Below the pieces are notes generated by a model. It saw only the letters and a list, made by a program, of their open reading frames with translations, did not search any database and was not told the origin of the DNA. This document shows positions 10,513-63,749 of a DNA stretch of 64,000 bases, piece by piece. Both the position numbers and the translations under genes were made by a program. Numbering within the stretch: the stretch's first letter is position 1; every line of letters begins with the position of its first letter. Source of the DNA: Pseudomonadota bacterium (lineage in GTDB: Bacteria; Desulfobacterota; Desulfobacteria; Desulfobacterales; Desulfolunaceae); NCBI GenBank assembly GCA_018818835.1, contig JAHIRD010000110.1, positions 1-64,000 of the forward strand. Reading direction: 5' to 3'.

Positions 10513-12675
10513 TTAAAAGGTAAGGTTAATCCCTGAGATAAATCGGAGGCCGTCATCGGGGTAGCCGAAATGAACCTGAAAATCAGTGTCGAACAGGTTG
10601 TTGACAGTCACAAACCATTCGGCGGCCATGGCTTTGATTTTAAAGGGTTGGATGGCTTTGACATCCACGGCCGTGTAATCTCCAAGTCGTTCGGCTTCCC
10701 GGTTTTCCATTTCGCTGTACTGTTCGCCGCAGTATCGCACGGAGGTTTCCAGACGAGTTCCAAGGTTCGGCAGGGTATACAGAGCCGTGAATGTTAATTT
10801 GATGTTCGGGGTATAGGTCATCTCGTTGCCGGTGCCCTTAATTTCAGAATCCTGGACAATAACATCGACGTCCACGGTCAGTCCCATGTCAAATCCGTGT
10901 TTCAAGGTGGCTTCCAGGCCCTGACGCCAGGACCTGCCGCCGTTGACCGGCCGGAAGATCAGGTCTGTTCCACGCTGGTAGAGGATGGTGTCCCGGGTGT
11001 CGGACCGGAACCCGGACAGTTGGATGGTCCGGGTTTTGCCCTGGCGGAACTCCAGGGTCAGGTCGTTGGACCAGACCTTTTCCTCGGAAAGATCCGGGTT
11101 TCCCCTGGCCTGGTCAATGCTGCCATGGCTGGGCTGGTAAAGCTGGCCAAAGGTGGGGATGTTGACGGTGAAGCCCGTATTGACTTTAAGGCAGACATGG
11201 TCTGTGAAGGCATAGGTCAGCCCCCCCGAATATCCGGGATTGAAATCAAAATCACTGACATGATCTCCCCGCACCCCCAGGGTTCCAGTGAGGGCGTTCC
11301 AGGTACGGTCGCCCTGAATGCCCATTCCGGCTGTGGTCCTCCGGTGGCTGCCCGAAAGAGTATGGTCAATATCGTCATGTTCTGCCAGGGTATGGGTCCG
11401 GATGGCCCACAGGTCACCGTCACCGCTCAGATTGTACTCTCCCTTGAGACCCAGCGTGGTGCTGTCCAGGGTGGAGACAAAGCCGGTCTGGCTTTCGTCC
11501 TCCAGGTCGACCCTGTCCCCGTAAACGTTCACGGTGTAATCACCGGAACCCGCGAGTCCTTTTAAACGGCTGTCCAGCGATGCCTTTTGATAGGATTGGC
11601 GGGCATTGGGTGTGGGATTGTCCAGGGGACCGGCCGATCCGTATTCGGACAGATAAAATCGACCGTTCACATCTATTTTCCGGTTGGACGGGAAACTCGT
11701 GCCCCAGTGTGACGACAGATTGCCGGAGGTCCGGTCACTGTTGGTGCGCTTACCGTCTGTACGGTTGCCTGAAGCGGAAACCATGGTTGATCCCGAGTCA
11801 CCTTCGCTGCGGTGGCTGACAGTCCCCTCGGCCAAGCCAAATGACCCGCCGGCCAGATGAACGCGGGTGGTGTGTTTTGTCTCTGTTTTTTTGGTGAGGT
11901 TCATATCCCTCATCACGATACTGATGGCCCCCTCACTGGCGCCGGCCCCCAGCCAGACCGGTACCGGCGGCTTGAACACGGTGATGGATTCCACCATGTC
12001 GATGGGCACAGATGACAGATCCACGGATCCGTACTGGCTGCTGTTCAAGGGCCTGCCGTTGAGCAGGACCAGGACTCCGCCTGATTTTCCCGAACCCCGG
12101 ATGGAAATGCGTGATCCGAACCCGCCACTTTGTTTCACATCCACCCCGGCCATGGCATTCAGGGCGTCATCCACACTGAGCAGGTTGCGCTGTTTGATTT
12201 CATCCTGGCCCATCAGCACCACCTGATTGGGATTGCTGGAGACAAAATCACTGATTCGGTCCGATGTGACCACCACCTCGTCCAGTGTGATCACATCCGA
12301 GCCATGGCTTTGGTCGGCATAAACAGGCCGACTGCCAGTAAGAATAAACAGAAAAGCCAAAGACCAGGCAATGATATGACTCAAAGGAAGAGGATAAAGC
12401 CTCCGGCGGCCGCTTCCCCGCCTTCGCGAGGACAAGTTTAAAAAGCTGGGTAAATGGGTTGGGAATTCGTGTCGTTGAAAAAACAATGCAACGGCCCGTC
12501 GAAGTGTTCTGAGTTTTTCCGCGTTCACGGAATGCCGTGAATGTAAAACCTGTTTTACACACGTTTTTAAACCGTTTAGAACCGTAAAAAATTCATTTTC
12601 GTTAGGTTTTTCATCCCCGGTGGGGGCTGGCCCCAGGCAGGATCGCCGAAGGCTTAAAGAAAGATGTGTGTCCAT
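10513..12675 (-). CDS. TonB-dependent outer-membrane receptor (corrinoid/tetrapyrrole operon)
   Basis: An outer-membrane gated channel: TonB-box-like TLDEVVVTS, then a plug domain (about residues 140-250, with a RISIRGSG motif) and a long beta-barrel ending in the terminal aromatic LTF. It is the last gene of the cobalamin-riboswitch operon, 18 bases after the DUF2149 gene, so a corrinoid or related tetrapyrrole is the likely substrate. The start is uncertain. ATG at 12675 has an AGGA site, but the first 100 or so residues are encoded by repeat DNA (12399-12632), and the hydrophobic signal sequence (IIAWSLAFLFILTGSRPVYA) comes only after it. A TTG at 12384 with GGAGG 15 bases upstream is an alternative. 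The mature part is about 590 residues. Confidence 0.85.
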   Translation of the reverse strand: MDTHLSLSLRRSCLGPAPTGDEKPNENEFFTVLNGLKTCVKQVLHSRHSVNAEKLRTLRRAVALFFQRHEFPTHLPSFLNLSSRRRGSGRRRLYPLPLSHIIAWSLAFLFILTGSRPVYADQSHGSDVITLDEVVVTSDRISDFVSSNPNQVVLMGQDEIKQRNLLSVDDALNAMAGVDVKQSGGFGSRISIRGSGKSGGVLVLLNGRPLNSSQYGSVDLSSVPIDMVESITVFKPPVPVWLGAGASEGAISIVMRDMNLTKKTETKHTTRVHLAGGSFGLAEGTVSHRSEGDSGSTMVSASGNRTDGKRTNSDRTSGNLSSHWGTSFPSNRKIDVNGRFYLSEYGSAGPLDNPTPNARQSYQKASLDSRLKGLAGSGDYTVNVYGDRVDLEDESQTGFVSTLDSTTLGLKGEYNLSGDGDLWAIRTHTLAEHDDIDHTLSGSHRRTTAGMGIQGDRTWNALTGTLGVRGDHVSDFDFNPGYSGGLTYAFTDHVCLKVNTGFTVNIPTFGQLYQPSHGSIDQARGNPDLSEEKVWSNDLTLEFRQGKTRTIQLSGFRSDTRDTILYQRGTDLIFRPVNGGRSWRQGLEATLKHGFDMGLTVDVDVIVQDSEIKGTGNEMTYTPNIKLTFTALYTLPNLGTRLETSVRYCGEQYSEMENREAERLGDYTAVDVKAIQPFKIKAMAAEWFVTVNNLFDTDFQVHFGYPDDGLRFISGINLTF
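12399..12632 (-). repeat. GC-rich element E at the 5' end of the TonB-receptor gene
   Basis: About 234 bp, beginning with GCCTCCGGCGG and ending near GGCTGGCC. It is clearly homologous along its length to 18717-18980, at the 5' end of the CobN-like gene. The copies differ by a 30-base insertion and scattered substitutions. Both are read in the same frame of the gene that follows, between the start codon and the signal sequence. Confidence 0.8.
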
Positions 12676-12693
12676 ATATTGCGTCCTATGTGT

Positions 12694-13077
12694 TTATTGT
12701 ATTGATGTCTTGGCAGATGTTGTATCGGGAACGTAGACCATGGATCCGTCTTCCAGTTGGTAGGCCACGCCCAGGCGGTTGCCGCGCCCTTTGGCCGATT
12801 CCCGGGTCACCTTGGTGGCCTTGATGCTGGCGCCGTCCTTGACGATAATGTCCATTTCTCCGTTTTCATACTGTTTCATGATGGTCATCTTGGATGACTC
12901 GTTGAACAGGTCCTGGAGACGGTAGGAACTGAACAGGGTCATAATGAGGCCCACGATGAAGACCAGGCCGATGTCGAACAGGTTGGCCACACCGGTCATG
13001 GGGTCATCGTCACGGAAGGCCTGATCCCCGAAGGCCCTACCCGCAGTCCGGGTCCGGCGTTTTTTAAGATACGTCAT
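12694..13077 (-). CDS. DUF2149 membrane protein (ExbD-like position in a CobN/Hmu-type operon)
   Basis: A 127-residue protein with a basic, Arg/Lys-rich N-terminus, one membrane helix (about residues 36-53, IGLVFIVGLIMTLF) and a small C-terminal domain with GRGNRLGVAYQLEDG, characteristic of DUF2149. Start ATG 13077 has GGAGG immediately upstream and overlaps the ExbB-like gene by 14 bases. The topology (short cytoplasmic N-terminus, one helix, periplasmic domain) resembles ExbD/TolR. In CobN-like operons of other anaerobes such proteins accompany an ExbB-like channel. Inferred role: partner of that channel in energising a periplasmic or outer-membrane step. Confidence 0.78.
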   Translation of the reverse strand: MTYLKKRRTRTAGRAFGDQAFRDDDPMTGVANLFDIGLVFIVGLIMTLFSSYRLQDLFNESSKMTIMKQYENGEMDIIVKDGASIKATKVTRESAKGRGNRLGVAYQLEDGSMVYVPDTTSAKTSIQ

Positions 13078-13684
13078 GATCCACCTCCGTGAACGGGGCC
13101 ATGGCCAGTTCCGTGGCCAGTTCCATATTCTTGACATCTTCCTCGATCCAGCGCCGACGCACCGTGTAAAAGAAAAAGGCCGAGGTTCCGATGGCCAGCC
13201 CCACCACTGTGGTGGTAAAGGCGATGACCAGATCCGTGGTCAACTTGGTCATGTCTCCCTGGCCCAAAGCGGCCAGTCCCGTTCCCATGGGAATCAGGGT
13301 GCCGATCAGACCCAGGGACGGGGCCACACGCACTAAAATCCTGAACCGGTCCATGGAAATCCACAAGGCCAGGGTGGTGGATTGCAGGTGATTTTCCACG
13401 GCAATGTCCCTGGGGCCATCTTGGGCCATGATCCGGTGTAAGGTTCGCACATAGGCGTTCACCCGGGCTGTCACCGACGGGGTGGGGCCTGTGCGGAGTT
13501 TTTCAGGCAAGTCCGACGGTGGGCATGGTGTGAGCCTGGCTCGCTCTACCCATTCGGCCAAAAAAGATCCGGCCTGGACCACTGTGACAAGGATAAGAAT
13601 GGCCAGCATCAAAAGCACCGGATAGAGCAGTGAGGATGAGACCAGGTAAATAAAGGTTTTCAGCATGGCTCCTAAATCGATCAT
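13064..13684 (-). CDS. MotA/TolQ/ExbB-family proton channel protein
   Basis: A 206-residue protein with an N-terminal membrane helix (about 12-36) and two further helices (about 115-140 and 155-180). The family's conserved region is visible: APSLGLIGTLIPMGTGLAAL, then TTTVVGLAIGTSAFF. It would use the proton gradient to drive a partner protein, here probably DUF2149. ATG 13684 is chosen because AAGGAG lies 6 bases upstream and it overlaps the stop of the DUF2162 gene (ATGA). An earlier in-frame ATG at 13732 falls inside repeat DNA and would add 16 unconserved residues. Confidence 0.88.
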   Translation of the reverse strand: MIDLGAMLKTFIYLVSSSLLYPVLLMLAILILVTVVQAGSFLAEWVERARLTPCPPSDLPEKLRTGPTPSVTARVNAYVRTLHRIMAQDGPRDIAVENHLQSTTLALWISMDRFRILVRVAPSLGLIGTLIPMGTGLAALGQGDMTKLTTDLVIAFTTTVVGLAIGTSAFFFYTVRRRWIEEDVKNMELATELAMAPFTEVDHDVS

Positions 13685-14478
13685 GAACGTCTCCTTGATG
13701 TTGAATAGCGATGGCGTCGTAAAAAGTCCCATATGCGGCGTCTTTTTATGAGTTCATCAGTCGTGTTCATCCACCACCCCCACCCAAAAGCGAGTGTGAG
13801 TGAAATTCCTGTTAATAAGGTTGGGACAATGTCCGGCCATGGGGTAGTGGAGCGGTATCGGGCAAGCCGGTAAACACTGTCCAGTTCCCCAACATGGGGC
13901 ATCACCGTCACTGAAATAATGAAATAGGCGGCAATCAACAGCATGGTTCCGCCTAAAAGGGATTCGGGCGACCTGTTGCCGCCAGGTCTTGTTTTTGTCA
14001 TCACCATGACGATCAGGCTGGTCATGACAAAAAACAGGTAAAGCACGATGATGGTGGACAGGTGACGGTCCGGGAACAAAGACAGGAAAAATGCCGCAGA
14101 AAACAGAATCGACGCGGCACACACGGGGCAGGGCACCACCAGAAGCAGCCAGCCCCGGCTTTGTTTTTCAGCGTGGCTGGTTTTTTTCAAAAGCACCAGT
14201 CCCCAGGCCGACATCAGTATGGCCATGATCCCATGAATCAGCATCCCGGACTGTAATAAATTCTGGATCTCATCCAGGTGGGCCAGGATATCCGGATGCC
14301 GGAGAACCAGGCCTGTTGCCAGAAAAACCAGGGCGTAGGCCAGGGCAAAGGCCGACATGCCCAATGCTTTGAATCGGACCCTTGTCCCCAGGGTCCCGAA
14401 GGCCATGCCCATTCCTCCTTTGGCTGCAAAAAGCCCCATGCTGAACACCATCCCGAGGATAAGACTTGGATAAGCCAT
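13681..14478 (-). CDS. DUF2162 putative transporter (polytopic membrane protein)
   Basis: A 265-residue membrane protein with about seven hydrophobic segments and a conserved PCPVCAAS motif near residue 131, resembling the DUF2162 family found beside CobN-like genes in anaerobic bacteria and methanogens. The start is well supported by AAGGAAGGAG. It is translationally coupled to the ExbB-like gene through ATGA. The last 20 or so residues (IKRRRIWDFLRRHRYSTS) are encoded by a dispersed repeat shared with 3471-3500, so the native C-terminus has probably been replaced. Function is inferred only from neighbours: part of the riboswitch-controlled metal or corrinoid system. Confidence 0.72.
   Translation of the reverse strand: MAYPSLILGMVFSMGLFAAKGGMGMAFGTLGTRVRFKALGMSAFALAYALVFLATGLVLRHPDILAHLDEIQNLLQSGMLIHGIMAILMSAWGLVLLKKTSHAEKQSRGWLLLVVPCPVCAASILFSAAFFLSLFPDRHLSTIIVLYLFFVMTSLIVMVMTKTRPGGNRSPESLLGGTMLLIAAYFIISVTVMPHVGELDSVYRLARYRSTTPWPDIVPTLLTGISLTLAFGWGWWMNTTDELIKRRRIWDFLRRHRYSTSRRRS
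13709..13757. repeat. dispersed repeat K, copy 2
   Basis: 13710-13739 is an exact reverse-complement copy of 3471-3500. The flank TGAGTTCATC (ending about 13757) matches the GATGAACTC start of copy 1. It lies inside the 3' end of the DUF2162 gene and supplies its terminal codons. The middle of copy 1 (about 56 bp) is missing here. Confidence 0.75.
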
Positions 14479-14579
14479 AGATTAAACTCCTTCCTTACAT
14501 TCATTTTTAAAAAAGATCCTTGGCTCTTTTTCTTCATGGTTCCAACTCATGACTCGCGCAACTTCACGGACTTTGGTTC

Positions 14580-14767
14580 TGCCTCCGGCGGTCCTGCCGG
14601 GGGCCAACCTTTTTGAAAAAGGTTGCCAAAACAGGTATCAAGATCCCGGCAAGCCGTGTTCATGATAAACGTCAAAGGAGTTACTCGGGCCAATGGCATT
14701 GTTCACTGACCCCCCCGTCTGCTCCCAACCCGTTTGTCCAGCTTTTTAAAAGCTGGCCGCCGGAGGC
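14580..14767. repeat. element E1 with 11-bp terminal inverted repeats
   Basis: A 188-bp segment bounded by GCCTCCGGCGG (14580) and CCGCCGGAGGC (to 14767). Inside are GGGGGCCAACCTTTTTGAAA paired as a hairpin at one end and CCAGCTTTTTAAAAGCTGG at the other. It fills the gap between the CobN-like gene and the DUF2162 gene. There is no coding potential. Related copies: 25229, 27689, 29759, 43645. Confidence 0.8.
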
Positions 14768-14796
14768 ACACGCCCAAGCATTTTACGGGATGGCCT

Positions 14797-17700
14797 CTAC
14801 ACATCGTCTGCTGACCTGCGCCGTATACCCCAGAAGAACAAGGCGAGCACGCCCAAAACAAAAAGAGCGGCGGCCCACTGGACCCCGGAGGAGGTCAGGG
14901 AGGGTGTTTCATCCTGATTGTTCATGTCCTCCATTTTGTAGCCTTCCACTTCCGGGGATTTATTGGCGGTTTCCTTTTCGGTGGTTTCATGCTGTGCTTT
15001 GATGCTTTCCTCCAACTCGGCCTGTCTTTCCTTGCCCAGTTTTTCATGGAGCTGGGCCAGAAATTCCTTTCGTTCGGACACCTGCTGCTCCAGGGGTTTT
15101 TCAGCCATTTTTTCAATGGCCTGCTTGAATTTCTCCGCCATTTCTGGTGGCAGAACACCGGGAACGGAAATCATGGTCAAGACCATCTGGTTGAGCATGG
15201 GGTTGTTGCAGGTGTGGTGGGAGCAGGCCACTTTCTTTTCCACCACGTTCACGGCATATTCCACGGCCAGTTTCTGCAAGGTGGCTTCATCGGCCTTCCA
15301 GTACCCTTTGCGGGCCGTTTCAAGCATGCGGGCCGTGATGGACTGATAGGCCCAGGGATTGTTTTCGTTGAAAAATTCTTTCAGGTCCTGGCCGTATTTG
15401 TCTTCCACATAAACCTCGTAGACCTGACGCCATTTTGCATCATCCACGGCGTCCTTGACCGTCACCTGCCAGCCCCAGAGGTTTTCGGTGAATTGAGCCA
15501 TTTCCCTGGCTCCGGCGTAATTGTCCTTTTTCATGCCTTCGATCCACTGGGGGTTCAAATAGCGGGTGCGCAGTTCCCGGCCAATGGTTTTGGCCACGTT
15601 CTCCACCATGACCTCGTCCTTTTTCCGGTGCATGGTCACCAGAGTGTCCGGGGCCTCGCCTTTCACGTGCTTGACAGCCAGGGACATGCCGCCCAGGTAC
15701 TCATAGAAATCATCTGTATCGATGATACCGATCACATTGCTGGACCGGGAATGCACGGCAATGTCCACCCCCCGGAGGTTTTCCGTGAAGGTTTGGGCGG
15801 CCGGTTCAGCCCATTTGCCCTGGCCCACGGCGTACTTGACCCGTTTCAGGTACTCGTCGCTCACGGCCTCATCCGAAGCCCACATGGCCGAGGCCTGAAC
15901 CCGATTGCTGACCCCGTTGCCGTAGGACCCGGTCTTTTCCGTGAAAATACGGAAGCGGGACTGGGTTTCAGCCCTGTCCTCATCCATGCCCGATGCGATA
16001 AGGGCCTCTTTGATGGTGGCCTTGTTTTTTGCTAACAGGTTTTCGATATCGGTCTGGACCATGGCTTTCTGGATGGCCTCGTCCAGAAAAATCAGCTTGT
16101 TGGGGAAGACATCCCGGTAAAGACCGGATGGATTGATCAGGACATCTATGCGGGGCCGGCCCAGTTCTGCGCCGGGAATCACCCGGCTGTTCTTGACCCG
16201 GCCCGTGGCGTCCCAGATGGGCTCCACGCCGATCAGATACAAAATGGTGCTTTCGTTGACCCCTTCGTTCCGGGTGGTCTCCATGGCCCAGAGCACCACG
16301 CCAACCTTTTCCGGATATTTTCCATCCTTTTCGAGCTTGGTTTTTATCATCTGGATGGCCGCCTTTTTCCCCACTTCCCAGGCTGCCTTGGATGGCACCT
16401 TGGCCGGAGAAAACCCGTAGAAATTCCGGCCCGTGGGAAGGCAGGCCAGGTTCCGCAAGGGATCGTTGCCTTCGCCGGGCGGAATGTATTCGCCGTCAAG
16501 GCCCCGGATCAGGTTGTCCATTTCCAGTGTGGGTGAGTCAAGCAGGTCTTTTTTGACCTGGCCGGGATCGGCATCGGGATTTTGCTTGGCGATGAGGCGC
16601 AGGGTCTCGTCCACCGCCTCGGGGGCATCGGGTCTGCCGTAGGTGTGAAGGCCATAAGGCAGGCTGTTGTCGTCTATCTCATGCAGATAAAGATGGATGT
16701 CTTCCATGGCCTTTTCGTTCATTTGCCCAATACCCAGATCCTTGGCAATCCCGGTTTTTTCAATCAGTACGTTGATTTGTTCCATGTACTCAGGCGCGGT
16801 TTCACTGCCGTTGGCATGGGCGACCTCGTATTTGTGATACAGCTCATGGATGTCGGCGTACTCACTGTAAAGGTCCGCCTCCTTCATGGGCGGGGTCAGG
16901 TAATCAAGAATCACTCCCCGTCCCCGGCGTTTGGCCTGCATTCCCTCACCCACGTCGTCCACGATATAAGGGTAAAGGTTGGGGATGTCTCCGCTCATGA
17001 TTTCCGGCGGGTCCGAGGGGGCCAGTCCGGCCTGCTTGCCCGGAAGCCACTCGTAGGTGGCATGGGTGCCCAGATGAATCATGGCATCGGCCTTGAATTT
17101 TTTGGTGATCCACAGATAAGCTGCGGTGTACTGATGGGAGGGATGAATGTAAGGGTTGTGATACAGTTTCATATCGTTTTCATCGGCCCCACCCCCGTCC
17201 CGGGTGGGCTCGGGCATAAGGATCACGTTGCCCAGCCGGACCATGGGGATATACAGGCGACCGTCTTTGGCCATGACGTGGCAGTTTTCAGGTGGCCCCC
17301 AGTCTTTGACGACCTTGTCTTTGAACGATGGGGGCAGGGTCTCAAACCAGGTGGCGTATTCGGAAAGGGCCACCCGTTCCACATCGGCCTCAGCCAGAAG
17401 ATTTTCCAGCTCGCCCGGCGCCCAGGAACCGATATTGCGTCCGCTGTTCAAAACCAGTGTCTTGATGCCCTCTTCCGTGAGTTTGTCCGTGTTTTCAACA
17501 CGGTATCCGTCCTGTTTCATCCGGGCGAGGATCAGTTGAAGGCTGCGAAACACGTTCAGGTAGGCTGCGCCGATGTTCTGTTTGCCCCCGCCGTGGTTGT
17601 AATAGATGATGACCACCTTTTTATCTTTGTTGGCTTTGCGCTGAAGAGCCACCCAGTTTTTCAGGCGTGGAATCAGGTAATCAATGGTTTCATCGATGGT

Positions 17701-19017
17701 GTCATGCACCATCAAGGGCCGCCCGGTCTCGGGGTCGGACACGGGGGTTTTGCCCATCAGGGGCGTGGGCTCGATGGCTCCTGAAAACTCAGGCGTTGAG
17801 AGGGCCCAGACCGTTTCAAAAGGGCCAAGTCCTATCTCACTTTTCCGCCATTCATCGATGGTTTCCTGGTAGGGTCGTATGACATTGAAGACCGGAACGT
17901 TCAGGTCCAAAAGGCCCTTCCTTACACCGTTGGTGAGGGTGGAGGCGAACTTCAGGCAAAAGCTGACCAGCACATCCACCGAGGGTTTGCCATCCACTCG
18001 GACAAACACCTCTTCCATGGCCCGGCTTTCCCGGACCAGGGAGGAAAGGACGTTAAATCCCGCCTTTTCAAACCGTTGGATCAACGCGTCCGAGGCCTCT
18101 TTATGCCCGATGTCCAGGCTGTCAACGGATAACATCACCCCCAGCCAGGGGTTTTGGGCATTGAAACCAGGGCGTTTGGCATACCAGGCCTTGTACGTGG
18201 GGATATCCAAAAACCGCGTGTTGCTGTCTGGATGATAGATGGGCCCTTCCTGTTTGTCTTGGACCGGTGGCTCGTAGGTCACCGATGGATCGATATGCCG
18301 GTGAACCGCCAGGCGGACCATATTGACGATGTTTTCCACAAACCGTCCCCTGTAATTCATGATCTCCGTATCAAAACGAAAGCCTTTTTCCCTGAGCTTT
18401 TCAGGGTCACTCCCGTGGTTGATGGCATAAACAACGTTCCCCTTCATGAGATCGTTGTCCACCATGTAATCGGCCAGTTCCTGCATCATTACATCCACAA
18501 AGACCACCGAACAGCCGGCAATATAGGCTTTTGCCTCCTCGTTGCCGTCGAGTTCCTGAAGGGAATAGGTCCGGGTTTCGATGGATTCGGGAAGGTTCAG
18601 CGCCTTGATGGCCTGGTAGATCTTATAGTTGTATAAATCCACTTCCAGAATGGCGATGGACTCGGCATGGGCCGATGCGGCCATTGAGCAAAATAAAGTC
18701 AAAGCAAAATAAAAGCGCCTCCGGCGGCGGCTTCCCCGCCTTCGCGAGGACAAGCTTAAAAAGCTGGGCCGGTCTTCGCCCAAGCTTCGCCCGACACGCA
18801 AATGGGTTGGGAATTTGTGTTGTTGAAAAAACCATGGAAGGGCCCATTGAGCGCCTTTGAATTTCTTCAGGTTCACGGTTTGCCGTGAAGGTACGACCTG
18901 TTTTACACACGTTTTTAAAATGTTTAGACATGTAGAAAATTTATTTTCGTGACGTTTCTTATCCCCGGAGGTGGCTGGCCATCGAAGGCTCATTTTTAAC
19001 CGATCAATAGACATCAT
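14797..19017 (-). CDS. exported, membrane-anchored CobN/HmuS-like chelatase
   Basis: A very large protein (1406 residues from ATG 19017, which has GGAGG 5 bases upstream and overlaps the previous stop as ATGATG). It belongs to the CobN/magnesium-chelatase-H family; HLGTHATYEWLPGKQ near residue 645 is the family hallmark. Unlike cytoplasmic CobN it carries a hydrophobic export signal (LTLFCSMAASAHA, about 100-115) and a C-terminal helix (GVQWAAALFVLGVLALFFWG) before Arg-rich residues. The body should therefore be periplasmic and tail-anchored, like HmuS, a CobN relative in heme-uptake operons. Expected chemistry is inserting or removing a metal in a tetrapyrrole. No ChlI/ChlD partners are present. 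The first 100 residues are largely encoded by a repeat (18717-18980), so the true start is uncertain. Confidence 0.85.
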   Translation of the reverse strand: MMSIDRLKMSLRWPATSGDKKRHENKFSTCLNILKTCVKQVVPSRQTVNLKKFKGAQWALPWFFQQHKFPTHLRVGRSLGEDRPSFLSLSSRRRGSRRRRRFYFALTLFCSMAASAHAESIAILEVDLYNYKIYQAIKALNLPESIETRTYSLQELDGNEEAKAYIAGCSVVFVDVMMQELADYMVDNDLMKGNVVYAINHGSDPEKLREKGFRFDTEIMNYRGRFVENIVNMVRLAVHRHIDPSVTYEPPVQDKQEGPIYHPDSNTRFLDIPTYKAWYAKRPGFNAQNPWLGVMLSVDSLDIGHKEASDALIQRFEKAGFNVLSSLVRESRAMEEVFVRVDGKPSVDVLVSFCLKFASTLTNGVRKGLLDLNVPVFNVIRPYQETIDEWRKSEIGLGPFETVWALSTPEFSGAIEPTPLMGKTPVSDPETGRPLMVHDTIDETIDYLIPRLKNWVALQRKANKDKKVVIIYYNHGGGKQNIGAAYLNVFRSLQLILARMKQDGYRVENTDKLTEEGIKTLVLNSGRNIGSWAPGELENLLAEADVERVALSEYATWFETLPPSFKDKVVKDWGPPENCHVMAKDGRLYIPMVRLGNVILMPEPTRDGGGADENDMKLYHNPYIHPSHQYTAAYLWITKKFKADAMIHLGTHATYEWLPGKQAGLAPSDPPEIMSGDIPNLYPYIVDDVGEGMQAKRRGRGVILDYLTPPMKEADLYSEYADIHELYHKYEVAHANGSETAPEYMEQINVLIEKTGIAKDLGIGQMNEKAMEDIHLYLHEIDDNSLPYGLHTYGRPDAPEAVDETLRLIAKQNPDADPGQVKKDLLDSPTLEMDNLIRGLDGEYIPPGEGNDPLRNLACLPTGRNFYGFSPAKVPSKAAWEVGKKAAIQMIKTKLEKDGKYPEKVGVVLWAMETTRNEGVNESTILYLIGVEPIWDATGRVKNSRVIPGAELGRPRIDVLINPSGLYRDVFPNKLIFLDEAIQKAMVQTDIENLLAKNKATIKEALIASGMDEDRAETQSRFRIFTEKTGSYGNGVSNRVQASAMWASDEAVSDEYLKRVKYAVGQGKWAEPAAQTFTENLRGVDIAVHSRSSNVIGIIDTDDFYEYLGGMSLAVKHVKGEAPDTLVTMHRKKDEVMVENVAKTIGRELRTRYLNPQWIEGMKKDNYAGAREMAQFTENLWGWQVTVKDAVDDAKWRQVYEVYVEDKYGQDLKEFFNENNPWAYQSITARMLETARKGYWKADEATLQKLAVEYAVNVVEKKVACSHHTCNNPMLNQMVLTMISVPGVLPPEMAEKFKQAIEKMAEKPLEQQVSERKEFLAQLHEKLGKERQAELEESIKAQHETTEKETANKSPEVEGYKMEDMNNQDETPSLTSSGVQWAAALFVLGVLALFFWGIRRRSADDV
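18717..18980 (-). repeat. GC-rich element E at the 5' end of the CobN-like gene
   Basis: 264 bp, beginning with GCCTCCGGCGG and ending GGCTGGCC. It is homologous to 12399-12632. Relative to that copy it carries a 30-base insertion, a multiple of three, matching sequence also present in element E2 (around 25435-25470). It lies between the ribosome-binding site and the signal-sequence codons. Confidence 0.8.
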
Positions 19018-21038
19018 GGCTGCCTCCTTTGGGCATCGCGTTCGAAGATTCCGGTGACCAGAGCCGAAAAGGCTCGGGCTGTCATGGGTGGTAAGGGGAT
19101 ATCCGGGGTTATGGGTGTCTCCGTTCCAGGCGTCCCTGAAATCCGTGAGACAAGGTCTTTGCACAGAATGTCGAAACAGGACGTATCCTGGATCTGCCCC
19201 TGCCGCAACGCATCATCCAGGCTCAGGGCCATTTCCACGAAGGACGCATAAAAAGGCTGGGCCAGAAGGGTTTCCAGACGTCCGGCCAGCATTGTTTTTT
19301 CCATGGGAGCATCAAACATCCCAGCCAGGTTTTCCAGGGTCAACTTCCGTTCGTCGAGCCGCTGGAGAATATTCCTGTTTTTGCGGATGCCGTTTTGTTT
19401 GAATATGGCCTCAACGACCCCGTCATAGGCGGCGCCCGCAATCATCTGACCCATGGCAGTGTGGCCTCCTGCCCAGAGGATCTCCTTTCCCTGGCCCTCG
19501 ACCACGAGGATTGTATCGGTACCCGTACCCGTGGCCTGGTGTTCCAAAGGTGTCCGTGTGCTCCGGATATCCATGTCCGACAGAGCCGCGGTTTTGCCTT
19601 CTGTGACCATGACCATGGCCCAGGCCATGGCGCTCGGGGACAAATGCCTGTTGGTCAAAACGATGACATTGATGGTTCCCGGGGTGTCGTGGGCCTGGAA
19701 TTCTTCGGCCACGCGCAGGGCGTTTCCCCGGACCCCGGCGGTGACGAGCAATGTCACGGTCAGGTCCCCCGATGTCCGGGTCTGGATAGACAGATTATCC
19801 ATGGAAGCACCGGTCATCAGACCGGCGTAGTGCTTTTCCTTGAATCCAAGATTTCGGGCAATGACCGGTTTCACGGCGTCAACGCCATGCATCATATGAC
19901 CCAGGCTGGCATGCATGGGCACATGGGTGTTACCCACGCCCCGAACGCCGCTACGCAGACCTTCGAAGGTGGATAACACGACCATGGGTTTCGACAGGTT
20001 GATTAAAACAGAGTGATAGGTGGCATCCCAGACCCGGTGCGTCACCACACTGGCCTCTTTCACATAGTCCAGGGGAATATTAAGGGGCTGTTTCGATAAA
20101 AATGTATCTTGGGTAACTGCCTTATGGGGATCGGTGAAAAGATCCGGATACAGGGTGGTGGCAAACCACTGGACAAAGGCTCCGGTCCGCACCGTGGCCC
20201 GGCATGTCAGATCACAGGGGAACATGGACACCGAACCGTTTTTAACGGCAGCCACCCGGTTATAGGGTTCCTTGTTGAGCAGTGCCTCCACCGCCTTTTG
20301 GTTGCGGTCACATCCGTAGACAAACTCAGGATCAAAGGTGGTCCACTCTTCCGGAGACACGGAAACGGCAAACCCGTTCCGGCCCCATTGGGGCGGAATC
20401 CCTCCTGCCGCCCGGATGACTTCGTTCTGGAAGCTGTCATCTCCCGGACAGGACAACGCCTGTCCCATCATGACCCGGACGACCCGCTTGCGTTTTAACT
20501 CCGGCTCGGCAGTAAGCCGGGCTTTGACCAGAGCGATCTGATTTTTGTTTTCTTCGATCACGTCCCGGGCTTTCTGTTCACAGTCAAACAGACGGCCCAT
20601 GTCGCCCATCACGGAAAAGGACTGGTCCAATGAGCGAATCTCCATGACCATCACAGGACAGTCACCCGAATCAACGCGTTGGATCACATCCTTTTGGGAC
20701 GGAAAGGCAATGATCAAATCCGGCTCGCACCGGGCGATGGCCTCCGTGTCCGGGCTAAAAAAAGAGCCCAGGTTTTTCACGGTAAGACCACTGTGCTCAA
20801 GCATGTCCTGACGGCACAGGCCAACGAGGGTCTCCTGTTTTCCGAACCGCACCATCATTTCGGTAACGGCCGGAAACAGACAGACCACCTTTCGGGGCGG
20901 CTTGGTAAATTTCAGCGCTTTACCCTGGGTATCGGTAAGGGAAACAAAATACCCCGAGCACTGCCCGTTGCCGGGCATGAGCAGGAGAAAGGCACCCAGG
21001 CAAATCAGCAAAAAAGGGGCGTTCTTCAGATTCAGCAT
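19014..21038 (-). CDS. exported fusion: BtuF-like corrinoid-binding domain plus CbiZ amidohydrolase
   Basis: A 674-residue protein. An N-terminal signal peptide (FLLICLGAFLLLMPGNGQCSG) precedes a periplasmic-binding fold typical of BtuF/FecB proteins (about 30-290; RKVVCLFPAVTEMMVRFG, then CEPDLIIAF). The C-terminal half resembles CbiZ, the adenosylcobinamide amidohydrolase that cuts the nucleotide loop during corrinoid salvage (ATGTGTDTILVVEG and AGGHTAMGQMIAGAAYDGV). CbiZ is normally cytoplasmic; here the signal places it in the periplasm. The start at 21038 has AGGAG 7 bases upstream; ATG 21053 overlaps the receptor stop but lies before that site. It is coupled to both neighbours. Inferred role: bind corrinoids delivered by BtuB and trim them outside the cytoplasm. 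Confidence 0.85.
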   Translation of the reverse strand: MLNLKNAPFLLICLGAFLLLMPGNGQCSGYFVSLTDTQGKALKFTKPPRKVVCLFPAVTEMMVRFGKQETLVGLCRQDMLEHSGLTVKNLGSFFSPDTEAIARCEPDLIIAFPSQKDVIQRVDSGDCPVMVMEIRSLDQSFSVMGDMGRLFDCEQKARDVIEENKNQIALVKARLTAEPELKRKRVVRVMMGQALSCPGDDSFQNEVIRAAGGIPPQWGRNGFAVSVSPEEWTTFDPEFVYGCDRNQKAVEALLNKEPYNRVAAVKNGSVSMFPCDLTCRATVRTGAFVQWFATTLYPDLFTDPHKAVTQDTFLSKQPLNIPLDYVKEASVVTHRVWDATYHSVLINLSKPMVVLSTFEGLRSGVRGVGNTHVPMHASLGHMMHGVDAVKPVIARNLGFKEKHYAGLMTGASMDNLSIQTRTSGDLTVTLLVTAGVRGNALRVAEEFQAHDTPGTINVIVLTNRHLSPSAMAWAMVMVTEGKTAALSDMDIRSTRTPLEHQATGTGTDTILVVEGQGKEILWAGGHTAMGQMIAGAAYDGVVEAIFKQNGIRKNRNILQRLDERKLTLENLAGMFDAPMEKTMLAGRLETLLAQPFYASFVEMALSLDDALRQGQIQDTSCFDILCKDLVSRISGTPGTETPITPDIPLPPMTARAFSALVTGIFERDAQRRQP

Positions 21039-21052
21039 GGTGTTTCTCCTCA

Positions 21053-22963
21053 TCAGTAGTCGTAACGCAGTGACATGTAAAAAGACCGGCCCGGTGAAGG
21101 ATAGCCCTGCACAAGGGCGTAATTTTCATTGAACAGGTTGCGGATATCCGCCTTGAGTGAGATTTCACCGGCCTTTCCCATGGAGAACAGGGTTTTGGAC
21201 ACGGTCAGATCGGCCACGGTAAACCCGTCCAGTTCGTTCGCTCCTGTACCTTCATTGTCTTTGATCCGCTGGTCGGACAAATAAGAGAAATTCAGTTTAG
21301 AGACAAATCCCTGGTCCCGCATGGCAAAAGACAGACCGAAGGAGGCACGCCAATCCGGTGTGTAAAAGAGATCTTCGTCGGTTTCGTCGTTCGTGTATTC
21401 GATTAGATGGGTGAAGGAGGTGTAGGGGGCCAGTTCAAAATCCCAGTCAAACATCACTCCCAGATCAAATCGCAGGTTTCCTTCCATACCGGCAAGGGTG
21501 GCCCCGGAGAGGTTTTCATAGGTCCAGTAGCCTGCCATAGGGCTGACATAGGCGATCTGGTCTTCAAAAGCTGTATGGAAATAGGTAATTCCACTTGATA
21601 AGGCGCCGTGGTTCACATCCAGACCGCATTCCCAGGTTTTGCTTTTTTCCGGTTTCAAATCCGGATTCCCTTCAAGAATGCCCATGGATCCGTAATCATT
21701 GTACCGGAACAGCTGTTCGGGGGTGGGGACTTTGAACCCTTCGGCGTAATTGGCCCGGATCTTCAGTTCTCCTGTTATTTTATAGGCAAACCCTACACTG
21801 GGCGTCACATTGCTGTCGTCGGTGCGTTTCGTATCACTACCGTCCATATCGTAGTTGTCTTGACGCACGGCCGCGGACAAGACCAGGCGTTCGTTTAGAA
21901 GCTGGGTTTTGGTAAGGATAAAAGCGGCTAAGTTTTCATAGGTGGTCGATTTTTTATAGTGGGTCCAGTCCAGGCCTGTGGTGGCACGGACCCGGCCCCA
22001 GTCTGCGGTAATCTGCCCCTGGGAGCCCTGCTGTTTATCTTTGGGGAAATTGTTGGCTGTATCGGAGTTGCGTTTGTTTTCTCCGTAATAATATTTCAGA
22101 TCCCAGGAGAGAAAACCGTTTTCCATCTGCCCGGTGTAATCCAGATCTGTTTTGTCTTTTTTTGAAAGCGTGATCGTGTTTGTCCGGTCAATGTCACTGA
22201 AGTATCCGGGGCTGCCCACGTTTTCAGCTTTATATCCGGAGTAACAGATACCGACCCGGTGCTTGGGAAGAAAGGTCCAGCCCGTGTTCAGGCTGTATCG
22301 TTCTTTGGATGTGAAACCCGTGTTGTAGTAAGTATCTCCCTGGGCCGTCTGATAATCGCCCTGGGTTTCGGTGGAGGCGCTCAAGGAAAAATCAACATCA
22401 TCGGCCCGGCCCGATGCTCCGGCGGATATTTTTGAAAAATCCCAGCTGCCTGTGGTTTGCTCCACATACACCGAGGGTTTTCCCCGGCCTTTTTTGGTGA
22501 TGACGTTGATCACCCCTCCCATGGCCGATGCGCCGTACTGAACCGATCCCGGACCCCGTATGATCTCTATCCGTTCAACATTGTCGATATTGATCTTGTT
22601 CAGAACTCCGGTGCCGGACCGGACCCCGTCAACAAGGATCAGCACGTATCCTTCCAGTTCGGAATCGTACAGATCGGTTTTAAACCCCCTAATATCCACC
22701 ACCACGATGGAATTAGGGTACTCACGAATCATGAATCCCTGTTCCTGGAGAAGGCCTCCCAGATCGTGGGCCGATGACTGGCCGATGAGATCCTCATCAA
22801 ATACCGTGATGTTGCTGGTCACATCTTCCGGTTTTTCCGCCACACGCCCGGCAGTGACCACAAGGGTGTCAAGCACCTTTATGTCATCGTTCTCCTTCTC
22901 TGCCCAACTTGGGGCACACAAGCCTAAAAACACCACACATAAAACAAGCCAAAACCGTTTCAT
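21053..22963 (-). CDS. btuB: BtuB-like TonB-dependent cobalamin/corrinoid receptor
   Basis: A 636-residue outer-membrane receptor: signal peptide (MKRFWLVLCVVFLGLCAPSWA), TonB-box-like VLDTLVVTAGR, plug domain (about 45-160, with IEIIRGPGSVQYGASAMGG) and a 22-strand-type barrel ending in aromatic RYDY. The start at 22963 is chosen for the GGAGGAAAGG upstream and the clean signal peptide; an upstream ATG at 23017 adds 18 unconserved residues. It is the first gene after a cobalamin riboswitch, so corrinoid is the strongest substrate prediction and repression by B12 the likely regulation. Its stop overlaps the next start codon. Confidence 0.92.
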   Translation of the reverse strand: MKRFWLVLCVVFLGLCAPSWAEKENDDIKVLDTLVVTAGRVAEKPEDVTSNITVFDEDLIGQSSAHDLGGLLQEQGFMIREYPNSIVVVDIRGFKTDLYDSELEGYVLILVDGVRSGTGVLNKINIDNVERIEIIRGPGSVQYGASAMGGVINVITKKGRGKPSVYVEQTTGSWDFSKISAGASGRADDVDFSLSASTETQGDYQTAQGDTYYNTGFTSKERYSLNTGWTFLPKHRVGICYSGYKAENVGSPGYFSDIDRTNTITLSKKDKTDLDYTGQMENGFLSWDLKYYYGENKRNSDTANNFPKDKQQGSQGQITADWGRVRATTGLDWTHYKKSTTYENLAAFILTKTQLLNERLVLSAAVRQDNYDMDGSDTKRTDDSNVTPSVGFAYKITGELKIRANYAEGFKVPTPEQLFRYNDYGSMGILEGNPDLKPEKSKTWECGLDVNHGALSSGITYFHTAFEDQIAYVSPMAGYWTYENLSGATLAGMEGNLRFDLGVMFDWDFELAPYTSFTHLIEYTNDETDEDLFYTPDWRASFGLSFAMRDQGFVSKLNFSYLSDQRIKDNEGTGANELDGFTVADLTVSKTLFSMGKAGEISLKADIRNLFNENYALVQGYPSPGRSFYMSLRYDY

Positions 22964-23175
22964 TATCGAGCCTTTCCTCCCCCTCGGGAGTCTAAGCATG
23001 TTAGCGGTTTTGCCCATGTATCCTGACTTAAGTCTTTATGCAGCACCGTCCCGTTTTTTTAGAAAACAGTGGCTTTAAACGCTGCAATCATCGCTATCAC
23101 AGTTGCGGGGCAGTGGACGATTCCCACGTCCTTCCATATCAGGCCGCATGAGATATATGCAGCCTAAGCAAAACC

Positions 23176-23217
23176 AAAAAAAAATCCCCGAACCGATACA
23201 ATATCGATCCGGGGATA
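23176..23217 (-). terminator. riboswitch expression-platform terminator
   Basis: On the minus strand a strong hairpin (ATCCCCG pairing with CGGGGAT, with TCGATA/TATCGG inside) is followed by nine T residues. It lies between the cobalamin aptamer and btuB, where a transcription attenuator would be expected. B12 binding would favour termination (family knowledge). Confidence 0.8.
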
Positions 23218-23280
23218 TCCCTTTTTTATCCTCAAAACCATAAGAGCGCATGCCTGTCCGTAGCAAAAGCGCCCATGCAT

Positions 23281-23440
23281 CCGGCAGGTCTTCTGACTTA
23301 CGGTTCGTCCTACTCTCCGCGCCTTCCCGTTTAAGGTGATTTAAACAGTGGCTTTGTTGCGGATTTTGTCCCCGTTCACAGCAGCGGGCCTGTCTCCGAT
23401 TTTCACGGAGTTCCCTATTAAGCTCTTATCGAGCACCTGG
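23281..23440 (-). promoter_or_regulatory. cobalamin (adenosylcobalamin) riboswitch
   Basis: Reading the minus strand, the element runs from CAGGTGCTCGATAAGAGCTT to CGTAAGTCAGAAGACCTGCC. It contains the B12-box core GCCACTG (23352-23346), the conserved GGGAA(C/T) segment near 23410 and the terminal AGTCAGAAGACCTGCC. All are hallmarks of the cobalamin riboswitch. It precedes btuB and, through the operon, the whole corrinoid gene set down to 10513. Confidence 0.95.
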
Positions 23441-23460
23441 ATACAAAATATGAATGGACA

Positions 23461-23489
23461 TGATTACTGAAATGAATATTGCCTGTCAA
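23461..23489 (-). promoter_or_regulatory. sigma70-type promoter for the riboswitch operon
   Basis: TTGACA (23489-23484), a 17-base spacer and TAATCA (23466-23461) lie just upstream of the aptamer. The -35 is perfect and the -10 is partial. Confidence 0.6.
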
Positions 23490-23741: not shown

Positions 23742-25199
23742 CTATTTGCCGTGTGCCTTAGGCCATGATTCAACGAGATTTCTGGATGAATCATAGATGC
23801 TGATGGAAATGCCGTGATCGCCGTCCAGGCGATGCGTTGCACAGGACACTCAGGGGTCGTAGGCGCGCACCGCCATTTCGATTTTGTTCAGGGTGCCCTC
23901 GTCCACGTTTCCGTTTTTTATCAATAATCTGGCAGCCTGATTCACACTCATGTTGATGGGGCCCAGGTTGTGGGTGGTACCCACAATCATGTTGGCTCGG
24001 GTGATCATACCGTTTTCATCGGTGGAATAATCATGAATCAGGGTTCCCCTGGGGGCTTCCACGCAGCCTACGCCGCGTCCCGCACCCGGTACTGCTACGG
24101 CCCTGACGTTTTCATCGGTAATTTCAGGATCATTGAGCAGCTCGATGGCGTGCTCGCAGGCGTAGACCTCTTCAATCAGACGGGCCCAATGATAAAGCAG
24201 GGTGGCCTGGGCCGGGCGACCGAATTTTTCGCGGAATTCCTCCAGTTCGGCCTGGGCTTTGGGCGTGGTCATGTGATCCGCAACGTTGATCCTGGCCAGA
24301 CAGTTGGATCTGTAAATCCCTTTGGGCGCGTCAAGATCCAGTGAAAAGCCTTCTTCCCAGTTCCGGGCATAGGGGAATTTTCCGTAGGACCAGGGCACCA
24401 CCTGTTCACCGATATAGTCGGCATAGTCGTTTACATCAAAATCAGTGAAGGCCCCGTCCGGTTTCATAAGCCTGAGCTTTCCGTCATAAAGATTCATGCC
24501 TCCGGTGTCATCCACGGTTCCCAGGAAACCGGTGGTGATGACGCCCAGCACCTGAATGGTGTCCATGTATTTGGCAAAGATCTCTTTTTTTGCAAAATCA
24601 ATGGTAAAGAGGGCAAAGTCGAGAATTTCCTGCATTTCTGCAATCATTCCTTTGCGGTCCTCTTCTAAAAGCGGTTTGGAAAACCCACCCGTCACTCCGG
24701 CCACGGGATGAATGGCCTTACCGGCAAACTTTTCCAGAATCATTTTGGCTTTGAACCGCATCTGCACCACTTTTTTTGCAAGATCCGGGTTGGCCTTGGC
24801 AACGCCGATGACGTTTCTCACCGCATAATCACTTTCCGGGCCAATGACAAAATCAGCGGCTGCCAGAAAGAAAAAGTGAAGCAGCTTGTCTTCCGCATGG
24901 GCGATGGTCTGCATGAGTTCGCGTAGTTTTTGTCCGGCTGGCGGAGGTGTGACACCGAAGCACCGGTCCACGGCCTTGTTTGATGCAAGATGATGGTGCC
25001 AGGGACAGATCCCGCATATGCGGTTTACAATCCGGGGCAACTCCTCGGCCGGTTTCCCTTCCACAAATTTTTCAAACCCCCGAAGGGACTGAAAATGAAC
25101 CTTGGAATCCTTGACATTGCCGTCATCATCCAGATCAATGGCAATGGACGCATGCCCCTCAATCCGGGTAAGCGGCGAAATGGTGATGGTTTGACTCAT
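23742..25199 (-). CDS. mvhA: Mvh/Vhu-type [NiFeSe] hydrogenase large subunit, selenoprotein
   Basis: Catalytic Ni-Fe subunit of the cytoplasmic hydrogenase that feeds HdrA. The L1 motif RICGICPWHH is near residue 63. The C-terminal metal motif reads AYDP-UGA-VSCATH, that is DPUxxCxxH with selenocysteine 450 (UGA at 23852-23850) replacing the usual first Cys. The frame continues 35 codons to TAG at 23742, giving 485 residues. The tail after His (RLDGDHG and on) is the peptide normally removed by a maturation protease. Without readthrough the protein lacks both C-terminal Ni ligands. Start ATG 25199 has AAGGAA upstream; an earlier start at 25277 falls in repeat DNA. Last gene of the hdr/mvh cluster. 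Confidence 0.93.
23817..23852 (-). promoter_or_regulatory. SECIS-like hairpin of mvhA
   Basis: Sixteen bases after the UGA, ATCGCC pairs with GGCGAT around the loop TGGAC. The same 16-base spacing separates UGA and stem in the hdrC/B-like and mvhD genes. Bacterial SECIS elements lie directly 3' of UGA within the coding region (family knowledge). Confidence 0.75.
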
Positions 25200-25228
25200 A
25201 CGGATTTCCTTTATTGTTGATTTTGTTG

Positions 25229-25527
25229 GCCTCCGGCGGCCCTGCCGGGGGCCAAACTTTTTGTAAAAGTTTGACAAAACATGTTTTTTGTCTTGGAACG
25301 GATATCGTTCTAAGACACGTTATCTTATTCGACGTAACCTTTGCCCACATCCCGACCCATCCCAATTATAATTATCGTTCAAAGGGCCGATACGACCGTT
25401 ATTCAATCCACACCCACCCCAACCCATTTGCGTGTCGGGGCGAAGCCTTAGCGAAGACCGACCCAGCTTTTTAAGCTTGTCCTCGCGAAGGCGGGGAAGC
25501 TGGCCCCCCGGGAGGGCCGCCGGAGGC
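25229..25527. repeat. element E2 (GCCTCCGGCGG inverted ends)
   Basis: A 299-bp segment bounded by GCCTCCGGCGGCC and GGCCGCCGGAGGC, between mvhA and mvhG. It contains GGGGGCCAAACTTTTTGTAA with a complementary arm, an AACGGATATCGTT hairpin, and CCCAGCTTTTTAAGCTTGTC followed by CGCGAAGGCGGGGAAGCTGG. It is about three-quarters identical to E4 (29759) by eye. No gene. Confidence 0.85.
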
Positions 25528-25539
25528 TTGTGTTTCGGT

Positions 25540-63347: not shown

Positions 63348-63749
63348 TTACTTTTCCGTTGCCAGGCAGAGCCGCTCAGCCCCAGCAGCCTTGGCCAGAT
63401 CCATGACCTTTACGGCGCGGTTCAGCTCAACCAGCCGGTCGGCCTTGACCATGACCAGCCGGTCCTTTTGACCGCCTATCATGGTTTTCAATTCCTTGAA
63501 CAGGGCATCTTCCCTGAATTCCTTGGTGTTGATAAAGGCCCGTCCTTCCCGGTCCACATAGACAGTGATCTCTTCACGGGTAATCGGGGCAGAGGCTTTG
63601 GCCTGGGGTAATTTGACCTTGATGCCTTCTTCCACCATGAAGTTGGTGGTCAAAAGAAAATAGATCAACAGCATGAAAACAATATCAATCAGGGAGGTCA
63701 AGGGTGTCTGGATGGCGTATCTGGGCCTTTTTTTCCTGTGAACCAGCAT
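63348..63749 (-). CDS. exbD: ExbD biopolymer transport protein
   Basis: A 133-residue protein: one N-terminal membrane helix (SLIDIVFMLLIYFLLTTNF, residues 19-37) containing the conserved Asp22 that carries protons, then a periplasmic domain (VYVDREGRAFINTKEF, VMVKADRLVELNRAVKVMDL). It lies 3 bases from exbB and 16 bases before the chosen tonB start. Confidence 0.95.
   Translation of the reverse strand: MLVHRKKRPRYAIQTPLTSLIDIVFMLLIYFLLTTNFMVEEGIKVKLPQAKASAPITREEITVYVDREGRAFINTKEFREDALFKELKTMIGGQKDRLVMVKADRLVELNRAVKVMDLAKAAGAERLCLATEK

Follow-up and report, generated by a model that had tools for sequence, protein, structure and literature searches.

Operon structure and cobalamin riboswitches

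The 64,000-nucleotide stretch of contig JAHIRD010000110.1 analyzed here (below, the window), from a bacterium of the Desulfolunaceae, carries an operon that encodes two TonB-dependent receptors, a BtuF-CbiZ fusion, an exported CobN-like protein, a DUF2162 membrane protein, an ExbB/MotA-like channel and a DUF2149 protein (Table 1). All seven genes lie on the minus strand, each with a Pfam match, where a preliminary description of this DNA had placed them. Neighboring genes overlap or are at most about 20 bases apart, except for a 318-base gap between the CobN-like and DUF2162 genes. The same description had put the operon under one cobalamin riboswitch; the gene set stands, whereas the riboswitch proved to be two in tandem.

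Both riboswitches exceed the RF00174 gathering score of 31.5, and a strong intrinsic terminator separates them. Riboswitch 2 abuts a Shine-Dalgarno-like stretch and the ATG at 22963 of receptor 1. The mechanically called start of this gene, 23017, is probably wrong since it falls inside riboswitch 2, and ATG 22963 is preferred. The first of the pair appears to act by termination and the second by translation, and judging by the riboswitch class the operon would be repressed by B12. At the level of sequence, the B12 control claimed earlier is borne out by the two matches and the terminator.

Table 1. Features of the operon and its leader region, in the order of transcription (window positions).
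Feature	Position	Strand	Basis
Sigma-70-like promoter candidate, upstream of riboswitch 1	23460..23489	-	TTGACA, 18 nt, AATCAT
Cobalamin riboswitch 1	23266..23456	-	RF00174, 115.8 bits, full model 1-189
Intrinsic terminator between riboswitches 1 and 2	23184..23216	-	15-pair stem, then 8 T
Cobalamin riboswitch 2, ending close upstream of the first gene's ribosome binding region	22996..23186	-	RF00174, 75.8 bits, full model
TonB-dependent receptor 1	21053..22963	-	PF00593, PF07715
BtuF-CbiZ fusion with N-terminal export signal	19014..21053	-	PF01497 residues 56-275; PF01955 residues 353-546
Exported CobN-like protein (BtuS type), C-terminal membrane anchor	14797..19014	-	PF02514, 1024.6 bits
Interspersed repeat, in frame within the n-region of the CobN signal peptide	18700..18960	-	
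DUF2162 integral membrane protein	13681..14478	-	PF09930, 121.3 bits
ExbB/MotA-like proton channel	13064..13732	-	PF01618, 46 bits
DUF2149 protein, ExbD-like layout	12694..13137	-	PF09919, 104.8 bits
TonB-dependent receptor 2 (alternative TTG start 12435)	10513..12675	-	PF00593, PF07715
Second copy of the interspersed repeat (73% identical), same spot of the receptor-2 signal peptide	12399..12609	-	

The preliminary description had proposed comparing CobN-like genes and their riboswitches across genomes. Our comparison covers stretches of up to 20 kb from part of the sampled genomes and 79 named loci; the named loci come from a contig scan that kept the best 80 of 317 candidates and are biased to close relatives. 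They include Desulforhopalus, Desulfobulbus, Desulfocicer, Desulfonema, Desulfogranum, Desulfoluna and others and, beyond these genera, Synergistaceae, a Planctomycete, Mariprofundaceae and a Victivallales bacterium. After six duplicate contigs had been dropped, CobN, ExbB and DUF2149 genes occurred together in 86 clusters; CbiZ was also present in 47 of these, 46 times as a BtuF fusion. Where 700 or more upstream bases could be seen (25 clusters near contig ends were excluded), a riboswitch was found in 29 of 34 clusters with CbiZ versus 14 of 27 without it. Five CbiZ clusters had none there (L042, L043, L129, L142 and L160), and in L129 and L160 a switch lies about 6 kb farther upstream. Among the 43 clusters with a switch in view, 6 others also have two switches that precede or overlap the first gene, and Trichlorobacter lovleyi has two in tandem upstream of its receptor gene. 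Three heme operons with HmuY (L242, L244 and L249) gave no riboswitch match at E values up to 1, nor was any match obtained at the Runella and Cupriavidus loci described below.

Association of the parts was also seen at the level of the phylum. In the window's phylum, which is probably Desulfobacterota by its named relatives, 41 of 297 sampled genomes had a strong BtuF-CbiZ match (at least 277 bits), four of these matches being partial (G112, G159, G219 and G241), and DUF2149 was above cut-off in 34 of 294. The two co-occurred in 20 of 294 genomes, with 4.7 expected (p = 2.6e-11; the draws of 297 and 294 genomes differ); 15 of these 20 genomes have both on one contig within 10 kb.

The exported BtuF-CbiZ and CobN-like proteins

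The second gene joins a corrinoid-type solute-binding domain to a domain of the adenosylcobinamide/cobamide amidohydrolase family. Its CbiZ domain scores 163.6 bits with PF01955 against a cut-off of 27, and the blocks TGA, GTIN, ATGTGTD and others are invariant in 33 aligned fusions; a sequence search found no CbiZ among solved structures. The BtuF part resembles class III binding proteins, including BtuF of V. cholerae and heme-binding proteins, and the predicted structure of the fusion has a pLDDT of 88.1. Earlier work has treated CbiZ as a salvage enzyme with no export. The window protein shares the family and its invariant blocks with the CbiZ of cobamide remodeling in Rhodobacter sphaeroides and archaea, but differs in carrying an export signal and in being fused to a binding protein.

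Export was called by a hydropathy rule, not a trained predictor. By this rule 68 of 70 fusions have a signal-like hydrophobic stretch ahead of BtuF; of the two exceptions, L141 is a copy cut by the contig end and L190 has such a stretch at its own N-terminus. Among six stand-alone CbiZ proteins a signal is present in L070, L071 and L072 and absent from L069 and L135, while L143 is cut. The CbiZ domain of the fusions would accordingly be expected, from its family, to be active in the periplasm.

The best evidence for where the domains lie comes from two proteins in which BtuF, CbiZ and CobN form one chain, both free of gap letters: L154 (a Synergistaceae bacterium, 1968 aa) and L190 (deltaproteobacterium S140_46, 2024 aa). 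Each has an N-terminal hydrophobic stretch and a C-terminal anchor, and between them the 19-residue maximum hydropathy reaches only 1.27 and 1.49, respectively, below membrane level. The three domains therefore lie in the same compartment, as had been claimed for capture, CbiZ and CobN. At the joint of L154 the CobN part runs straight on from CbiZ and the CobN signal peptide is gone, whereas in L178, an unfused relative, a stop codon stands at this point and another gene begins. A frameshift artefact would be expected to retain the CobN signal peptide. By eye, about 85 residues within BtuF of L190 seem foreign or frameshifted; the joint between CbiZ and CobN lies elsewhere. The two proteins fall in different clades of a tree built by a quick method. 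Such single chains make the system one expressible, testable enzyme. Two other candidate fusions were set aside: the DUF2149-BtuF-CbiZ frame of L041 and L150 crosses 34 undetermined residues (an assembly gap), and the joint CobN-DUF2162 frame of L127 was not used, its DUF2162 piece being short (43 bits).

The CobN-like protein is most similar in sequence to HmuS, then to CobN, then to ChlH. HmuS, its best solved relative, scores 770.7 bits with the CobN-like family profile, and in a midpoint-rooted tree the exported proteins (3 HmuS and 46 others) separate from 3 CobN and 1 BchH. The core is not new but a member of the exported HmuS/BtuS branch, for which a link to B12 has been published. Hydrophobic stretches were found at the N-terminus in 95 of 103 CobN-like sequences and at the C-terminus in 89; about half of the 14 C-terminal misses look cut or short, and 7 come from one deltaproteobacterial group of metagenome-assembled genomes (MAGs). 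The window protein has both. The export signals claimed for it and for BtuF-CbiZ are in this sense a family-wide trait.

In the window its N-terminal stretch lies behind an inserted repeat. The 261-base repeat query has 42 matches in the genome; only the two copies in Table 1, in the signal-peptide n-regions of CobN and receptor 2, span nearly the whole query, the remainder being pieces of about 45-115 bases. Because the in-frame repeat precedes their export signals, the start codons of both genes are unsure. The CobN-like reading frame was first called as 14797-19164; it has an ATG-ATG at 19017/19014 and an alternative TTG at 18753.

The residues named in the HmuS structure paper include Met79, His254, His538 and His1209 (PMC12583661). 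The equivalent of His538, a superfamily residue, is kept in all 106 scorable sequences (HLGTHA in the window against HFG(T/A)HG), as is the head-domain heme ligand Met79 in 98 of 100. In contrast, the His254-Gly-Arg neck ligand is not kept, the window having CLKF and its relatives SLKF-like sequences, and at the position of His1209, the second catalytic His of HmuS, 103 of 106 scorable sequences have Asp and the other 3 have Gly, with no His among them. Where HmuS has LSLDHxxEFMGG, the window protein reads NVIGIIDTDDFYEYLGGM and so departs from the HmuS pattern. Among the references this site is His in 3 HmuS and 1 BchH and Asp in 3 CobN; the Runella protein also has Asp. The window protein and CobN share D-x-D-D (LDSDD in S. 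meliloti), against LSLDH in HmuS and TTVDH in BchH. On these few references, Asp appears to mark corrin enzymes and His porphyrin enzymes. Since two His residues of the HmuS heme site are absent and a CobN-type Asp is present, a corrin is favored over heme as the substrate, and the corrinoid assignment made earlier gains support from both changes.

CobN of the CobNST system shares the fold family and the D-x-D-D motif with the window protein, which differs in being exported and anchored and in having an extra C-terminal region, ACC-x-H-T-C-NNP. Each outer Cys of this region is present in 105 of 109 relatives, the rest being mostly gaps; 2 of 4 HmuS share the Cys pair, and the region is missing from the CobN and BchH references. 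No other PF02514 protein was found in the window's genome, and a CobT-type partner gave no match in this 98% complete genome (CobS was not searched for); ChlD gave only matches below cut-off.

Two loci show other arrangements of CobN-like genes. On a Cupriavidus sp. EM10 plasmid (L248; 6383-10456 and 11787-15569) an exported-type relative with a C-terminal anchor adjoins a cytoplasmic-type CobN. Three CobN-like genes stand in a row in the deltaproteobacterial MAG Gx485_bin53 (L197; 9746, 14625 and 19285), and their products have Gly-, Ala-, Pro- and Asp-rich tails in place of a hydrophobic C-terminal end.

Receptors, channel and membrane protein

Receptor 1 had been named BtuB. Both receptors are TonB-dependent receptors by Pfam, but neither reaches the BtuB equivalog TIGR01779 (167.8 and 126.3 bits, cut-off 599.7), and receptor 1 scores higher with the TonB-hemin model (194.8 bits, itself under that model's cut-off); a BtuB identity would thus rest on context, not sequence. 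Near the mature N-terminus of receptor 1 lies DTLVVTA, and in receptor 2 DEVVVTSD, which we take, by eye, to be TonB-box-like motifs.

The ExbB and DUF2149 proteins could simply energize these receptors, as the preliminary description and the hmu literature assume. We regard this alternative as rather unlikely. The motifs in receptors of the same operon favor it, as does an Asp with which the membrane helix of DUF2149 begins in 84 of the 85 sequences aligned (Glu in Runella). ExbD has an ion-path Asp in its membrane helix, and in both hhalign comparisons of DUF2149 with ExbD the two residues aligned in the same register, at probabilities of 6.6 and 1.5 that are not significant. Moreover, no ExbD-like gene was shown nearby in 74 of 87 clusters; 13 clusters have such a gene and 5 a TonB-like gene on the same strand and no more than 9 kb away, these counts being lower bounds from similarity to three query proteins. 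Against it, the T. lovleyi plasmid pGLOV01 has ExbB-ExbD-TonB genes right alongside (in the order cobT, bzaF, methyltransferase, receptor, DUF2162, ExbB, DUF2149, CobN, exbB, exbD, tonB, second receptor), DUF2149 matches no TonB domain in Pfam, and at L172 DUF2162 is fused to ExbB. The genome of Methanosarcina acetivorans, an organism without an outer membrane, also holds both DUF2149 and a CobN-family protein, although this co-occurrence is at the level of the genome. The window's genome itself has five ExbD genes elsewhere, one of them at window positions 63351-63707. The "dedicated ExbB/DUF2149 motor" proposed for import is therefore not supported as it was stated, and ExbB-DUF2149 need not serve the receptors, though most clusters leave this undecided. 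An apparently long ExbB at L054 was discounted, as its extra N-terminus looks like a spurious frame; a separate membrane-type reading frame lies there.

DUF2162 has K20, H82, a PCP-x-C motif (C117, C120) and M179 invariant in 52 of 52 aligned sequences, plausibly as metal or thiol-redox residues. With its predicted structure (pLDDT 86.7), Foldseek gave no match at an E value of 0.001 or lower. A second structure comparison returned helical matches at background level (best Z 8.5), with ferroportin-type and ZIP rows not above background. HmuT takes the place of DUF2162 in three heme operons; in one Runella hyp operon a protein that resembles NicO/DsbD, below cut-off, does so. Equating either with DUF2162 found no support in profile comparisons (probability 1.8 for HmuT with three sequences and 0.3 for the Runella permease with one, both weak tests). 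On these few loci, a different membrane protein in each metal context would fit a metal-release module.

Further corrinoid genes occur at three other cobalamin riboswitch loci of the window's genome, the gene names there being our reading of the open reading frames. At one, tandem riboswitches precede btuC, btuD, btuF and cbi genes. At another (L074, contig C93, 8614-9597) a riboswitch stands directly before a CbiK-like cobalt chelatase with an export signal, which may be a second exported chelatase under B12 control. At the third (L075, contig C156) the riboswitch is followed by a thiC/bzaF-like gene, cobT and a methyltransferase gene, and bzaF/bzaC-like genes are present in the host; this set suggests anaerobic synthesis of a benzimidazole lower ligand. 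If the reading is right, the host makes its own benzimidazole-type cobamide and would therefore have reason to strip foreign lower ligands, and with btuCDF, cbi, cobT and bzaF/bzaC-like genes cobyric acid could be rebuilt into that cobamide.

A proposed periplasmic corrinoid pathway and its alternatives

We hypothesize that this is a B12-repressed operon for corrinoid processing in the periplasm, in which capture is followed by loop removal and then by metallation or demetallation; we give this account roughly even chances. Low cobamide would open both riboswitches, of which one appears to act by termination and the other by translation, and the TonB receptors would deliver cobamides to the periplasm. 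There the BtuF domain would hold the corrinoid while the CbiZ domain cleaves the amide bond bearing the nucleotide loop, giving periplasmic cobyric acid. The anchored CobN-like BtuS would take the loop-less ring, which resembles the natural substrate of CobN, and act on its metal center. By analogy with HmuS this action, itself hypothetical, would most simply be metal removal, and insertion or exchange could also occur. DUF2162 would pass the product, released cobalt or the ring, across the inner membrane, and the ExbB-DUF2149 proton channel would drive BtuS or DUF2162, because no CobT- or ChlD-type partner was found. The genes, the riboswitches, the export signals, the active-site residues and the joining of BtuF, CbiZ and CobN in one chain are observed; repression by B12, periplasmic activity of CbiZ, the metal chemistry, the motor role and the transport step are the parts of this account that we infer. 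Remodeling of cobamides outside the cytoplasm, if true, would alter the modeling of cobamide sharing.

Several observations weigh against this account. To our knowledge, no enzyme removes cobalt from an intact corrin, and the chemistry is hard. In 39 of the 86 clusters CbiZ is missing, 13 of the 27 of these in view also lack a riboswitch, and the CobN core may for these reasons serve other substrates. BtuC-like genes lie near the cluster in only 3 of 87 cases and BtuD-like genes in 6 of 87. The signal peptide of the window's own CobN-like protein sits behind the in-frame repeat, and the stand-alone CbiZ of L069 and L135 appear to have no export signal. DUF2149 shows no significant profile relation to ExbD, nor has the modeled DUF2162 a confident structural match. 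Finally, our riboswitch rule also admitted L171 and L169, in which the sole switch lies inside the called cluster.

The pathway might end before any metal chemistry. In such plain cobamide remodeling CbiZ would strip the loop, BtuCD would import cobyric acid, and the CobN-like protein would only bind the corrin and hand it over. CbiZ and BtuF are present, as are btuCDF and lower-ligand genes by reading of the frames, and the corrin-type Asp signature is consistent with it. Retention of Met79 together with loss of its partner His254 is also what a site with a changed ligand would be expected to show. Strict conservation of the catalytic His (H538 of HmuS) argues otherwise, as does the CobN-ExbB-DUF2149 core in the clusters that have no CbiZ, and we consider this alternative rather unlikely.

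BtuS could also work in the direction of true CobN, inserting cobalt into metal-free or wrongly metallated corrins from the environment. The D-x-D-D shared with CobN, and not with HmuS or BchH, points this way. The missing CobT- or ChlD-type partner speaks against it, within the searches described above, and the chelatase-adjacent membrane protein varies with context, which fits product removal better (on the weak tests with three and one sequences). Insertion is in our view clearly improbable.

Uptake of heme or another porphyrin as in hmu operons, with the riboswitch as a regulatory cross-link only, would agree with HmuS as the best solved relative, with the TonB-hemin score of receptor 1, with the resemblance of the gene set to hmuRSTUV and with the heme-binding relatives of the BtuF domain, but it is very improbable given the loss of His1209 and His254, the presence of CbiZ and riboswitches, the three HmuY operons without a riboswitch match and a DUF2162 without homology to their HmuT.

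Beyond the corrinoid pathway, ExbB, DUF2149 and an exported CobN relative could together make up a chelatase driven by protons, with a membrane channel in the role that an AAA+ ATPase has in CobNST and ChlHID. If capture protein and metal permease are exchangeable, this would give a general periplasmic module for tetrapyrrole demetallation. We offer this as a possibility only; if true, metal-ring chemistry would be powered in a new way. Its versions would take iron from heme (with HmuY and HmuT), cobalt from corrinoids (with BtuF-CbiZ and DUF2162) and, as the Runella locus hints, nickel (with the NicO-like permease). In the B12 form, secreted CbiZ would remove the nucleotide loop first, and cobalt extraction would come after. 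On Runella slithyformis pRUNSL01 (L243) a TonB receptor, ExbB, DUF2149, an exported-type CobN-like protein and a membrane permease are found as in the window, but between hypABF and hypCDE beside a NiFe hydrogenase, with the NicO/DsbD-like permease and no riboswitch match; this suggests a nickel version.

Much of the core is already in print, and the "new type of scavenging" announced earlier is too strong for it. The hmuYRSTUV system of Bacteroidota, whose HmuS is a heme dechelatase, shares an exported, anchored CobN relative and genes for an ExbB-like protein, DUF2149 and a TonB receptor (EMBO J 2025, PMC12583661). The window family differs from HmuS by Asp in place of His1209 and by the missing His254, and its operon has BtuF-CbiZ for HmuY, DUF2162 for HmuT and a cobalamin riboswitch; none of its seven proteins matches the HmuY hemophore in Pfam. 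BtuS was proposed as a third type of CobN by Rodionov in 2003, as reported in PMC6460266; it is likewise CobN-like, linked to B12 and, where stated, exported, but the earlier BtuS work concerned heme. In Bacteroides fragilis, hmu-like operons have two receptor genes and a cobalamin riboswitch, and HmuT and HmuV have been considered diagnostic of heme transport (PMC10100974); for HmuV, the occurrence of DUF2149 in the B12 operons described here speaks against this. The operon on the T. lovleyi plasmid, with its tandem riboswitches, encodes a protein of the same family as that of the window, and for T. lovleyi (pSZ77) a CobN without CobS/CobT was described with its exact role unknown (PMC3403914).

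The new points are a CbiZ that is secreted, its single-chain fusion with BtuF and CobN, an active site of corrin type, a second motor and the version found in Runella. CbiZ is not named in the main text of PMC6460266, PMC10100974 or PMC3403914, so that neither BtuF-CbiZ nor the triple fusion appears there. In Chlorobium, cbiZ adjoins cobalamin transporter genes, and the passages seen of that source mention no export of CbiZ (PMC8620254). Among the matches listed for the open-licence literature, as far as the passages seen go, neither export of CbiZ nor its fusion to BtuF, with or without CobN, is mentioned.

Two further features lie upstream of the operon. The promoter candidate agrees with the consensus at 10 of 12 positions, and its regional count of 1 is not above that in shuffled sequence (mean 1.7). 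Directly upstream on the same strand, at window positions 23850-26478, genes read from the sequence encode NiFe-hydrogenase-like large and small subunits.

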